Source: an uncultured Porphyromonadaceae bacterium (GTDB taxonomy: Bacteria > Bacteroidota > Bacteroidia > Bacteroidales > Muribaculaceae). Taken from it: a stretch of DNA of 64,000 nt. A model generated the notes under the pieces. The model did no database searches. It was not told where the DNA came from and was given only the letters and a program-made list of their open reading frames with translations. Shown here piece by piece: positions 1 to 56,708 of the stretch (position 1 is its first letter; every line of letters starts with the position of its first letter). A program made the translations under genes and the position numbers. The stretch lies in contig CANPGB010000004.1 of assembly GCA_947573485.1 (NCBI GenBank), positions 62,001-126,000 on the forward strand. The letters run 5' to 3'.

Positions 1-277
1 CGTTCTCGGTCATTATTTCATTTATCACTCCGCCTTCGCGCGACCAGCGGTTGTTGTTGCCCATGTGCGAGGTGGCACCCAGGGCCCACAGACGTACCTC
101 GCTCGAAGCGTTGCCGCCGAGCACGGGGCGGTCCTGCACAAGCACCACATGTGCCCCGTGGCGCGCTGCCGTGAGGGCGCAGCATACGCCCGTCAGGCCA
201 CCGCCGATTACAATGATGTCGCCGGTGACAGTATCGCACTTTGGGGTGCGCGATGCTACAAATCCTTGACTGTTCAT
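1..277 (-). CDS. FAD-dependent oxidoreductase (FAD_oxidored/PF12831-like), N-terminal part only; continues beyond window start
   Basis: Minus-strand reading from ATG at 277 gives MNSQGFVASRTPKCDTVTGDIIVIGGGLTGVCCALTAARHGAHVVLVQDRPVLGGNASSEVRLWALGATSHMGNN; GGGxxG dinucleotide-binding motif and VLGGNxSSEVR motif. Confidence 0.85.
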   Translation of the reverse strand, partial: MNSQGFVASRTPKCDTVTGDIIVIGGGLTGVCCALTAARHGAHVVLVQDRPVLGGNASSEVRLWALGATSHMGNNNRWSREGGVINEIMTEN

Positions 278-302: not shown

Positions 303-1949
303 TTATTTTCGGAAACGGATAATCAGACCTGCCGCAAGCACTATGCACCCCATGGTCGCTGGCACATACTGCGAGCTGTCGGCAAGCAGGCCGAGCACTG
401 TTATCAGCACACCGGCAAGACTTATGCTCAGCCCCAACACACGGCGGGTGAAGCGGTTGGCAGCCTGACCCTCTTCGGTCACCGCGGCTGCGGCGGCATC
501 GGCACGGCTCTCTTCCTTGCTGTACTCAAGGTAGCGCGGGTCTACATAGGCGCGGCTCCACAGGTAAAGCTCGGTGATTATAAGCAGAACCACAGGCACG
601 AAGGCGCCAACGGCCATTTCGGCTCCACGGCTGAGCGTCACTCCCGCAAGAGGCAGCGCGAACTTGCACGAGAGGGTTATACCAAGGCTTATCAAGGTCA
701 CCGAGAGCACCGTGCGCGCGTTCTGACGCTTGCTGAAAAGCGACCAGATAACGGGCAGATACAGGGGAACTCCCGTGAGCGCCGCTACGCTTATCACCAC
801 GTTCACAATGCCGCCCATGCTCTTCACAAGCAGTGCCACAACAAGGGCGAGCAAGCCGAAGCCAAGGGTCGAAAGGCGTGCAACAAGCATAAGGGTGCGG
901 TCGCTCGCCGAAGGCACGAGGCGACGGAAAATATCGTTGGTAAACACGCCCGCAGAAATATTCAGAGTGGCGTTCAGAGAGCTCGCTGTGGCAAAAATCA
1001 TACCGCCGAGCATAAGGCCCAGCAGGCCACCGGGCATGGCAAGTTTGCACATCAGCAGGTAGGCGTTCTCGTTATCGAGACCCGTAAGACCGGGGTCATA
1101 CACGCGGTAGAGCATCGGGGGCAGCATCCACAGAAGGGCGCTCACAAGGTAGAGGGCCCCGAAAAGCCAACCCACCTTGCGGCTGTCGCCGGGTGTCTTC
1201 ACTGAGGTATAGCGCTGAACATATGCCCAGTTGCCGCCAAGGAAGAAGGAGTTGTACACGCAGAAAGCTATCAGGAACCACCACGAGTACTCGCCATGAA
1301 CGGGCATCCCGAAATTCTCGGGGACGGCGGCAAGGAAGGCCTCTACGCCTCCAACTTTCTCAAACGACAGCGGCACAACGATTATCACTGCCGAGAAAAG
1401 TATCACAAACTGCAGAACATCGGTAACAACCACGCCGCGCAGGCCGCCTATCGAAACATAAATCATGCTGAACACGCCCAAGGCGAGTATCGACCACGTA
1501 AGCGGTATTCCCGCAGCTACCTCAACGATTTTCGCCACAGGATAAAGAAAACTGCCCGTGGTGAATACCGATACTATAAGGAAAATATATGTATAGAATT
1601 TCTGTACACGCACGCCAAGGCGGTCGTTGATATAGCCTGCCGCCGTTAGCGCCTGCGTCCGTTGCCAGCGCGGTGCTATCCATGTGCCCACGGCGAAACC
1701 GGCTATCGACATCGTAAGCTGAATCATTACGGCAACAAATCCGTAGGAGTAAGCTATGGAGCCCCACACTACAAAGGTGCCGGCCGAGAAGAAGCCCATG
1801 AAGAGCGAGAGGCCGTTCATACCCCAGGGTACATTGCCGCCTCCGGCAAAGAAACTTTTCATGTCTTTGCCCGTGCGCGAGAAGGCGATGCCCGTGGCAA
1901 GGACGCCTATCGAAAAGAGGACGATTGTGATAAGATCGAGATTGTTCAT
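303..1949 (-). CDS. Sodium:solute symporter (SSS family)
   Basis: 548 aa polytopic membrane protein with SSS-like sequence; CAAATTTA (TAAATTTG on minus) promoter motif at 1998-2005. Confidence 0.85.
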   Translation of the reverse strand: MNNLDLITIVLFSIGVLATGIAFSRTGKDMKSFFAGGGNVPWGMNGLSLFMGFFSAGTFVVWGSIAYSYGFVAVMIQLTMSIAGFAVGTWIAPRWQRTQALTAAGYINDRLGVRVQKFYTYIFLIVSVFTTGSFLYPVAKIVEVAAGIPLTWSILALGVFSMIYVSIGGLRGVVVTDVLQFVILFSAVIIVVPLSFEKVGGVEAFLAAVPENFGMPVHGEYSWWFLIAFCVYNSFFLGGNWAYVQRYTSVKTPGDSRKVGWLFGALYLVSALLWMLPPMLYRVYDPGLTGLDNENAYLLMCKLAMPGGLLGLMLGGMIFATASSLNATLNISAGVFTNDIFRRLVPSASDRTLMLVARLSTLGFGLLALVVALLVKSMGGIVNVVISVAALTGVPLYLPVIWSLFSKRQNARTVLSVTLISLGITLSCKFALPLAGVTLSRGAEMAVGAFVPVVLLIITELYLWSRAYVDPRYLEYSKEESRADAAAAAVTEEGQAANRFTRRVLGLSISLAGVLITVLGLLADSSQYVPATMGCIVLAAGLIIRFRK

Positions 1950-2086: not shown

Positions 2087-2157
2087 TTCCGGAATCATAA
2101 TTCTTTCGGTTCCTTACTGTGCAGTAATTAAGGAAATAAGCCTTGTGCTCACCCCTT

Positions 2158-2250
2158 CCCCCGGAGGGGGTAAAGCTGGTTAACCGGGGGTGCATGTCAC
2201 CCCCGGCAGAGGGCCTGCGGAGGCCATGCCGTGCCGGAGGTACAGTACCG
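2158..2250 (+). repeat. Multi-hairpin repeat element, copy A (H1-linker-H2-H3-H4)
   Basis: CCCCC-GGA-GGGGG; TAAAGCTGGTTAA; CCGGGGGTG-CATGT-CACCCCCGG; GGCCT-GCGG-AGGCC; GTGCC-GGA-GGTAC; related in inverted orientation to copies at 56.5-57.1 kb. Confidence 0.75.
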
Positions 2251-2280
2251 GGTCTCCCCCCTTTTGGTAGCAACTCTTTG

Positions 2281-2307
2281 GTGTCGTGCGAGGGCGGAAA
2301 GCCCGAG
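2281..2307 (+). repeat. GTGCGAGGGCGGAAAGCCCGAG repeat, solitary copy
   Basis: TCGTGCGAGGGCGGAAAGCCCGAG, near-identical to copies at 6492, 6596 and 6687. Confidence 0.8.
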
Positions 2308-3482: not shown

Positions 3483-5051
3483 ATGAACAGTCAGTTATAC
3501 CCTATCGGCATACAGTCGTTCCCGCAGATACGCGAGAACGGATATCTATATGTCGATAAAACTGAGTATATCCACAACCTGGTATCCTCTGGAAAATATT
3601 ATTTTCTGAGTCGCCCCAGGCGCTTCGGAAAGTCGCTGTTCATCAGTACTCTCGAAGAATTTTTCAAAGGCAACCGTGCACTTTTCGAGGGGCTTGCCAT
3701 AAGCCGCTATGCCTATGATATGGAGCCGCACCCGGTGTTTCACCTCGATTTCACAGGCCGGAATTACAACACTCCCGGCAGTCTTGATGCACACCTCAAC
3801 AGCATGCTCGAGCGTTGGGAAGAGATTTACGGCGCCGAAAAGGCGCAACGTGCGCCCGAAGAGCGCTTTGAATATCTTATACTTCGGGCAAGGGAAATCT
3901 CCGGGAAGCAGGTTGTGATACTTATCGACGAGTACGACAAACCTCTCCTTGAGACTGCCGACCACCCTGAGTTGCAGGAAGCATTCCGCGACCGTCTAAG
4001 AGCCGTTTACGGCAATTTGAAAAAGCTTGACGGGGATATTCGTTTCGCTTTTCTTACCGGAGTTACCAAATTCGGACATCTGAGTATTTTCAGCGACCTT
4101 AACAATCTGAGGGATATATCCATGGAGAGCGCTTTCGGCGGTATCTGCGGAATCACCGAGCACGAACTCCACTCTTATTTCGACGATGGCGTGGCCGCTT
4201 TTGCTTCGGCAAACGGCATAGGAATCGAAGAGGCTTATGGCCTGCTCAGGCAGAACTACGACGGCTATCACTTCGCGCCGGTAGCTTCTCCCGATGTTTA
4301 CAATCCATTCAGCCTGCTCATTTGCCTTACACGCAAGTGGATAGGCGACTATTGGTTTCAGACAGGCACACCTTCGTTCCTCATAAAAATGATTAAGGCA
4401 AGGCATATTTCGCTTGAATCACTCGGAAAACTTGAAGTACGCCAGTCTGAGATTGAAAATGTGTCGTTCGATATGCGCTCGAGCCTTTACCCGGTGCTCT
4501 ATCAGGCCGGATATCTGACGATAAAAGCCTATCGTCCGGAGACGAGAACCCTTACTCTCGGGTTCCCTAACAGGGAGGTCGAAGAGGGATTCTTCATGCA
4601 GCTCATGAAAGTTTATGCGGCTCATGCTGAGATTGATTCCGGATTCAGCATTGTGAAATTCTACGATGATGTCTGTGAGGGCCGCCCGCAAGATTTCATG
4701 CAGAGGTTGCAGAGTATTTTCTCCGATTTCAACCGCGAGGGTTTCAATCACGTCAATCTCGAACAACATTATCAGGATATTACCTATATCATCATGAAGC
4801 TTCTCGGCTTTATGACGCATATAGAGTACCGCACTGCTTCGGGGCGCATCGATATGCTCGTCGAAACTCCCAGCTTTATCTACCTTTTTGAATTTAAAAT
4901 GGATAAATCGGCCGAAGAGGCAATAGCGCAGATTGATTCAAAGGATTACCTGCTACCTTTCAAGGCCGACAACCGACGCCTTATAAAAATCGGAGCCAAC
5001 TTTTCAAGCAAACTGCGTAGCATAGACAGTTGGCTGATTGTTGAAGCTTGA
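3483..5051 (+). CDS. AAA-ATPase-like / PD-(D/E)XK nuclease domain protein (AAA-ATPase_like + PDDEXK_9 type)
   Basis: Walker A RPRRFGKSLF, Walker B VVILIDEYDKPL, C-terminal GRIDMLVETPSFIYLFEFKMD nuclease-like motif. Confidence 0.88.
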   Translation: MNSQLYPIGIQSFPQIRENGYLYVDKTEYIHNLVSSGKYYFLSRPRRFGKSLFISTLEEFFKGNRALFEGLAISRYAYDMEPHPVFHLDFTGRNYNTPGSLDAHLNSMLERWEEIYGAEKAQRAPEERFEYLILRAREISGKQVVILIDEYDKPLLETADHPELQEAFRDRLRAVYGNLKKLDGDIRFAFLTGVTKFGHLSIFSDLNNLRDISMESAFGGICGITEHELHSYFDDGVAAFASANGIGIEEAYGLLRQNYDGYHFAPVASPDVYNPFSLLICLTRKWIGDYWFQTGTPSFLIKMIKARHISLESLGKLEVRQSEIENVSFDMRSSLYPVLYQAGYLTIKAYRPETRTLTLGFPNREVEEGFFMQLMKVYAAHAEIDSGFSIVKFYDDVCEGRPQDFMQRLQSIFSDFNREGFNHVNLEQHYQDITYIIMKLLGFMTHIEYRTASGRIDMLVETPSFIYLFEFKMDKSAEEAIAQIDSKDYLLPFKADNRRLIKIGANFSSKLRSIDSWLIVEA

Positions 5052-5093
5052 TAGCAGGAGGTGCTCTTCTCGGCTTTTTTCCGTAACTTTGCA

Positions 5094-5101
5094 CCACTTA
5101 A
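5094..5101 (+). promoter_or_regulatory. -7 element TAACTTTG
   Basis: TAACTTTG 16 bp before ATG 5117. Confidence 0.5.
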
Positions 5102-5116
5102 TTCTTCAAGGGCACA

Positions 5117-6475
5117 ATGAAACACTATTTTACCGCATTTTTACTCCTCCTCATAGCAGGCTCTGCAATGGCTGCTGAGCGCTCGTTCACCATACGTTTC
5201 GGAGCCGCCACGGCATCTACGGCCTCGCTCACAAACGATAACTTCATCTCTGCCGTAAGCGCCGGGGCCGATTATATCGACCACGTTACAAGCGTTGTAT
5301 CGGTATTCCCCGAGAAAGATGCAATTCGCCTTTCATCGAACAACCGCAACGGTAAATTCAACATACACCTGGCCGACGACGCCTGCGTGGTGGCTACAAA
5401 AATTGTGATCGACGCACGCCGATACGACAACGACCGCGACGCCGAGGCTGCTCTCATGATTAACTCGGAGACTTTCTACATAACCTCGCCCGCCGACGAA
5501 CTCTATACCCTTTACATACCCTCGCGCCCCGAGAAAACCCTCACAAACATCATTGTAGACGCTGAGCGCCGTGTGTATCTCAACGCCATAACCGTGTACT
5601 ACGACGATTCCAAGGGCGACGTCGGCCCCGTGCTCGAGACTGTCGCTGCGCCCGTATTCACCCCCGGCGCCGGTACCGTTACCGCAGGCACGCGTGTGGA
5701 GATGAAGTCGGCAACCGTAGGAGCGCAGATTTACTATACTATCGACGGCACCGAGCCGTCGTCGGCAGCTCTGCTCTACGAGGCTCCCGTGGAGATTAGC
5801 CACGACATCACCCTGCGTGCCTTCGCCGTGGCCGACGGCATGAAGCCCTCGGCTATTGTCTCTGCCGACTTCAAGGTGCGCAACCCGCAGGCCACCCTCG
5901 AGTCGTATTTCAACTTCGCCGAGCCTGAAACTCTTAACCCCGCCGTAGCCGCTCCTGCCGTTAAAGAAGCCGTTGACCTCGACGGACGCACCTTCTCCGA
6001 CGGCGACGTTGCCGTAAGCTTCACAGCTGCCGAAGACGGCAACACCCATGTGCGCCTCTATGGCTCATACGACGCCGGAACCGACCTCCGCATCTATAAC
6101 GGCGACGTAATGACAATCCGCTCGCTCAACCCCGCTTTCGTTATCACAGGTGCCGAAGTCACCGTCTCGCTCAGCGGTGCCAACTCCGACGCCTGGTTCC
6201 TGCCCTCGGCAGGCGAGTGGGTCTGGGAACGCAACTGCTGGGAACCCGGCGACGAAGCTGTGACCGAACTCGCCCTCGCATCGTGGATGCAGAGCAGCAT
6301 AACAGAGCTCCGCGTGACCCTCGACCAGACATCAGGTGCCGCTCTCACCCCGGCCGCTACCGTCGCCCCCGTCTACTACAACCTCCAGGGTGTGCGCGTG
6401 GCCAACCCCACCACCGGCCTCTACATTAAGCTCACCCCGCAAGGAGCCTCTAAAATCCTCATACGCGCCGAGTAA
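5117..6475 (+). CDS. Secreted protein with chitobiase/beta-hexosaminidase C-terminal-like domain and C-terminal YYNLQGVRVANP...GLYI domain
   Basis: Signal peptide; VEMKSATVGAQIYYTIDGTEPSSAALLYEAPVEI typical of CHB_HEX_C_1; conserved C-terminal motif. Confidence 0.75.
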   Translation: MKHYFTAFLLLLIAGSAMAAERSFTIRFGAATASTASLTNDNFISAVSAGADYIDHVTSVVSVFPEKDAIRLSSNNRNGKFNIHLADDACVVATKIVIDARRYDNDRDAEAALMINSETFYITSPADELYTLYIPSRPEKTLTNIIVDAERRVYLNAITVYYDDSKGDVGPVLETVAAPVFTPGAGTVTAGTRVEMKSATVGAQIYYTIDGTEPSSAALLYEAPVEISHDITLRAFAVADGMKPSAIVSADFKVRNPQATLESYFNFAEPETLNPAVAAPAVKEAVDLDGRTFSDGDVAVSFTAAEDGNTHVRLYGSYDAGTDLRIYNGDVMTIRSLNPAFVITGAEVTVSLSGANSDAWFLPSAGEWVWERNCWEPGDEAVTELALASWMQSSITELRVTLDQTSGAALTPAATVAPVYYNLQGVRVANPTTGLYIKLTPQGASKILIRAE

Positions 6476-56344: not shown

Positions 56345-56708
56345 GAGACTCGTTTTAATCGGCGTCCATGCGGACGCCATGCACTGAGCTTTGACTATCC
56401 CCGCACGCCTACGCCTGCGGCTGCGGCGTACGGGGTTACTGGATTAATCAGCGTCCTGGCGGACGCGACTTCGCCGGTTTCCTCCGCGCGCCTATGCCTG
56501 CGGCTGCGTCCTGGCAGAGGCGCTCGGGAGGTTCGGTGGAAAGTCTTGTACCGTACCTCCGGCACGGCACACTCTATATCTGCAGTCTGCCACGGGCGGC
56601 AAGCGCCCGCGGTTAACGGGCTTCAGGCCCTCCGGGCCAGGGTGTGCGGGGGAGTCCTATCAACCGTAATGGCTTCCGCCGGGACGCGCGCCAAAATCGT
56701 AAGGTGTT
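56345..56708 (-). repeat. 364-bp hairpin-rich repeat unit 1
   Basis: GAGACTCGTTTTAATCGGCGTCCATGCGGACGCC...; H4 56553-56565, H2 56590-56612, H1 56626-56638. Confidence 0.9.

Follow-up and report, generated by a model that had tools for sequence, protein, structure and literature searches.

Why would an intergenic element in a Bacteroidales genome keep several hairpins paired while the sequence of their stems changes? The question is raised by copy A, which lies near the start of the window (the whole 64,000-nucleotide stretch of DNA that was analyzed, G000:C4:62001-126000). The window comes from a 2.88-Mb, 49-contig genome (G000, here called the own genome). A sequence-only reading had described four hairpins (H1 to H4) at copy A, with further copies on the minus strand at 56.5-57.1 kb, and had implied a new family of structured RNA. 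It suggested covariance-model and Rfam searches and named a match to a mobile element as a result that would refute it. The analysis described here makes it very probable that copy A instead represents one end of an IS200-like (HUH/Y1) mobile element, in a non-autonomous form that has dispersed through the genome.

A covarying three-hairpin unit is dispersed in the own genome

BLAST searches of the own genome with either copy returned 20 and 31 matches. A covariance model built from 22 full own-genome copies (R1) returned 38 matches to this repeat, termed family A, and family A-like units were found with it in 11 of 50 genus genomes. The multi-hairpin element is real at both places in the window, with one full copy on the plus strand and, on the minus strand, two that are full and one that is partial; the minus-strand copies interleave at 56.35-56.83 kb with two units of a sister family, family B. 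The features are as follows.

2155-2253, plus strand: family A unit, copy A (H1, linker, H2, spacer, H3); R1 match of 92.8 bits, and alignment
2158-2170, plus strand: H1, CCCCC-GGA-GGGGG; two-sided changes across copies at 4 of 5 pairs
2180-2185, plus strand: TTAACC at the foot of H2, a candidate guide sequence; GTTAACC is invariant in the 22 own-genome copies and TAACC is present at most tnpA-flanking units
2184-2206, plus strand: H2, 9-bp stem; two-sided changes at 4 of 9 pairs
2212-2225, plus strand: GGCC-TGCGGA-GGCC hairpin in the variable spacer (formerly H3); private to copy A and absent in the other 21 copies
2227-2247, plus strand: third conserved hairpin (formerly H4, here H3), with a C.A mismatch in copy A; two-sided changes at 2 of 9 pairs and one-sided changes at 2
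~2095-2320, no strand: segment of ~200 bp absent in relatives G019 and G007; empty-site alignment, edges uncertain by tens of bases
56543-56641, minus strand: family A unit, full copy; R1 match of 100.6 bits
56907-57005, minus strand: family A unit, full copy; R1 match of 100.8 bits
57029-57096, minus strand: family A unit, partial, without the third hairpin; R1 match of 60.6 bits
56716-56830, minus strand: family B unit; 83% identity to the unit on contig C49
56355-56466, minus strand: family B unit; 82% identity to the C49 unit

All of the compensatory swaps listed in the sequence-only reading are present in the copies. Of its four hairpins, H1, H2, and H4 are conserved, the last with a stem of ~9 bp that is longer than had been stated, whereas its H3 is found only in copy A, and the spacer between H2 and the third conserved hairpin is unstructured in the other copies. 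In the alignment of the 22 full copies, pairing holds in 96.0% of cells and 10 of 23 pairs show two-sided changes with pairing kept. Double-sided changes occupy 61 cells versus 21.7 +/- 4.3 in shuffles (0 of 500 shuffles as high), and controls with slid partners have 1-5 pairs with a double-sided change. The MAFFT alignment places H1 one column off in L007 and L013, both of which were retained, and the pair counts are thereby slightly lowered. RNAalifold, unprompted, recovers the same three hairpins. Selection on the structure, as had been argued, is strongly supported, and the fold persists across Bacteroidales as the sequence diverges. The G-U pairs, from which a functional strand had been assigned, are indeed consistently oriented; this orientation (G.T in DNA) fits recognition of one strand of single-stranded DNA as well as it fits RNA.

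A simple transposon with two ends does not account for the fact that most family A units in the own genome are solo. The open reading frames that the copies overlap resemble shadow calls, with the exception of a 346-codon frame at L003. An exact-pattern genome-wide scan also gave matches in Rossellomorea and Planctomycetota, which lack covariance-model support and are evidently due to chance.

Copy A occupies a site that is empty in relatives

The orthologous symporter-LacI spacer of G019 and G007 is shorter by ~200 bp, the missing segment corresponding to the unit plus the adjacent hairpin repeat of the window. Compared with two losses, an insertion in the lineage of the window is the more parsimonious account. 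The junctions of the element are too diffuse for a target site to be defined, and comparison of the 56 kb locus with relatives for a second empty site gave only short or weak matches. A dispersed hairpin with many genome copies (family D, GGGC-GGAAA-GCCC, window 2292-2304) adjoins copy A, and another copy of it is found on contig C17 (L033 near 4765), where a class 2-like Y1 gene follows ~20 nt downstream. An AAA-ATPase_like and PDDEXK_9 gene (window 3483-5051) is also located near copy A.

Units bracket Y1 transposase genes in related genomes

A match to a mobile element, the refuting result named in the sequence-only reading, is found in related genomes. In G026, G028, and the metagenome-assembled genome G050, family A-like units in inverted orientation bracket a gene for an HUH/Y1 (IS200-like) transposase of ~147 aa. 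In the G026 element on contig C28, a unit at 154-251 (plus strand) is followed by tnpA at 265-705 and a unit at 705-802 (minus strand). Inverted unit pairs with no gene between them occur at L040 and L035. Among the 39 testable genus-set loci that encode a protein with the motif Y---Q--HH, two of them from G050, 27 have inverted flanks whose similarity exceeds the 99th percentile for mismatched loci. Many Y---Q--HH loci, including the other 12 of this set, have no clear inverted ends.

Across Bacteroidales, the unit plan reads H1, 10-14 nt, TAACC, H2, ~20 nt, H3, tnpA. The hairpin sequences are almost wholly different between loci, and what remains constant is TAACC and the three-to-four-base loops. 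A sequence-free descriptor was also applied, which requires an H1 stem of at least 5 bp, a short linker, A[AG]C with a C-initial H2 stem of at least 6 bp, a spacer, and an H3 stem of at least 5 bp, all in the right orientation. At 29 loci across the order, it is matched by 12 of 27 upstream and 11 of 28 downstream flanks, versus at most 1 upstream and 2 downstream in dinucleotide shuffles and 8 of 830 control windows (1%) from the same loci. The descriptor imposes pairing, so these matches show placement, and the covariation rests on the 22-copy own-genome alignment. Unit similarity tracks TnpA similarity (Spearman 0.22 versus a permutation maximum of 0.124). The life cycle of the element is seen most clearly in G154, where one 641-bp tnpA element is accompanied by five gene-less inverted pairs of 185-187 bp at other sites.

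These arrangements bear on the RNA family that had been implied. A structured regulatory or non-coding RNA acting after transcription, such as a riboswitch-like leader, an attenuator, or an mRNA stabilizer, would account for the strong covariation, the oriented G-U pairs, and the intergenic location, which in many cases has codirectional genes on both sides (16 of 26 own-genome copies, with 4 between divergent genes, 4 between convergent genes, and 2 at contig edges). It would not explain units in inverted pairs, either around tnpA or without a gene, a site that is empty in relatives, or neighbor genes that are unrelated and in all orientations. In addition, the window has no Rfam match at the gathering threshold except a tRNA at 58 kb, and the earlier statement that no named family has this architecture holds as far as Rfam and the literature were searched. 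An RNA family is thus an unlikely explanation, and the version in which such an RNA serves one fixed target gene is rejected on the gene context and the empty site. The units may have a secondary effect on transcripts. The family A units are best read as REP/BIME-like non-autonomous ends that would be recognized, cleaved, and mobilized as single-stranded DNA.

The bracketed transposases belong to the Y---Q--HH group

The full-length transposases are 141-154 aa, and H53, H55, Y113, Q117, H120, and H121 are invariant in 26 proteins, giving H-x-H and Y---Q--HH. Five of six tested proteins score above the cut-off of the IS200 model NF033573, and the sixth reaches 51.8 versus 55 bits. Relatives in the PDB include ISHp608 TnpA, and the group profile has matches in 152 of the 248 Bacteroidales genomes searched. 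As judged by motif and length, the transposases carry the signature of TnpA_Y1 subclass 1.2, which is described as having Y---Q--HH, ~148 aa, a core with a short C-terminal extension, a distribution in Bacteroidetes, and a low copy number (PMC6006769). That 2018 classification lists REP as "no" for subclass 1.2, and describes its members as generally without terminal IS200 structures and as not sharing IS properties (PMC6006769). The inverted flanks at 27 of the 39 genus-set loci and the order-wide descriptor matches differ from this published absence, which is a property reported for the subclass and does not form part of its definition by sequence.

Four Y1_Tnp (PF01797) genes are present in the own genome, on contigs C14, C16, C17, and C49, and none of the four is flanked by family A. 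The C16 and C49 genes are flanked by family B units in inverted orientation, and other repeats lie near the C14 and C17 genes, so none of the four serves as a family A carrier. Family B has 76 own-genome matches and follows the plan GCGTCC-gcca-GGACGC, a linker ending in GTAACC, a long hairpin, a spacer, and GGCGTCC-gcat-GGACGCC. The C49 family B transposase gene (L031, 3130-3567) appears to be inactive, with an in-frame TAG at its Y---Q motif, whereas the C16 copy is intact. Either the TnpA of family A has been lost from the own genome and the units are its relics, or the C16 family B TnpA mobilizes them in trans. Around another Y1 gene, at L032 (G000:C14), GCAAGCCGGAGGCTTGC palindromes are repeated at 4900-6300; they appear to make up another REP-like family, served by a transposase of its own.

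The REP-like dispersal and dimers of family A, together with the existence of class 2 genes on C14 and C17, could also be taken to indicate canonical REP/BIME repeats served by one of these RAYT-like genes. This explanation is very unlikely: the repeats beside the two genes are different, the units elsewhere flank Y---Q--HH proteins that score 20.7-33.1 bits or not at all with the RAYT model (NF047646, cut-off 80), and the GTAG/GTGG foot is absent. Ordinary DDE-type MITEs with terminal inverted repeats would fit the 185-187-bp pairs and are hardly credible, as the gene between the inverted ends encodes an HUH/Y1 transposase, the ends are internally hairpin-structured and drift in sequence where a terminal inverted repeat would be conserved, and solo ends are common.

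Comparison with known single-stranded DNA elements

The elements would work like both REP/BIME and IS200 systems and are canonical members of neither. With the REP/BIME/REPIN repeats and RAYT (TnpA_REP) of E. coli and Pseudomonas, they share intergenic hairpin repeats that are short, numerous, and also found as inverted dimers, and a Y1 transposase gene with these repeats on either side. They differ in having three hairpins per unit (~95 nt) rather than one, TAACC at the foot of H2 (GTTAACC in 22 of 22 copies) rather than GTAG/GTGG, and an enzyme with Y---Q--HH rather than Y---NP. With IS200/IS605 (IS608, ISDra2), the NCBIfam name of the transposases, they share a Y1 HUH TnpA of ~150 aa and hairpins near both ends. 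Unlike in IS200/IS605, solo units are common and no tnpB was noted between the ends. The ends of IS608 are single, non-inverted hairpins, in contrast to the inverted copies of a three-hairpin unit seen here.

Agreement with TnpA_Y1 subclass 1.2 extends to motif, size, host group, and low copy number, and most of the loci described here differ from it in having inverted hairpin flanks (PMC6006769). The nearest analogues of these ends are the TIRtrons (TIRYT), in which a Y1 gene is flanked by long inverted repeats (PMC3733652), and TnpA_REP subclass 2.6, in which "atypical secondary structures" flank the Y1 gene and have copies elsewhere in the genome (PMC6006769). Both have class 2 transposases (Y---NP), and the ends described here lack the TIR consensus GGGGWSAS. 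A literature search, mostly outside the subscription journals, found no later paper linking subclass 1.2 to such ends, and this link is provisionally regarded as new.

A proposed mechanism

Y1 HUH enzymes such as those of IS608 and ISDra2, and TnpA_REP, recognize hairpins on one strand of single-stranded DNA together with a short guide sequence at the foot, and cut by means of a tyrosine. By analogy, a TnpA of the Y---Q--HH group would act on the units described here with TAACC as its guide. A complete element consists of a tnpA of ~147 codons between two inverted units, in each of which H1 is outermost and is followed by the linker to TAACC, H2, ~20 nt, and H3 beside tnpA. When exposed as single-stranded DNA, for example on the lagging-strand template, each unit could fold into its three hairpins. 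TnpA would then bind the hairpins and the TAACC guide, nick with its tyrosine, and join the ends, such that the unit is excised or copied and re-inserted in intergenic DNA; the units may still be mobile in this way. Selection for recognition by the cognate TnpA would keep the pairs while the sequence drifts.

More broadly, subclass 1.2 Y1 proteins are probably the transposases of order-wide single-stranded DNA mobile elements whose symmetrical ends have three hairpins each (H1-TAACC-H2-H3) and which in Bacteroidales give rise to REP-like solo units, to miniature pairs, and perhaps to carriers of cargo. If true, this reading provides a concrete DNA substrate for a common group of orphan HUH enzymes and accounts for GC-rich hairpin repeats that form a conspicuous class in genomes of Bacteroidales. 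It would also mean that strong base-pair covariation can arise from single-stranded DNA transposition rather than RNA function, and that loci of this kind can be mistaken for new structured RNAs.

Finally, at L010 (G000:C21), two inverted family A units (146-235, plus strand; 1157-1232, minus strand) have the same geometry as those around the transposase. A check of this pair for a hidden tnpA found an Abi_2 gene (PF07751, Abi-like) between the units instead, which is possibly cargo.
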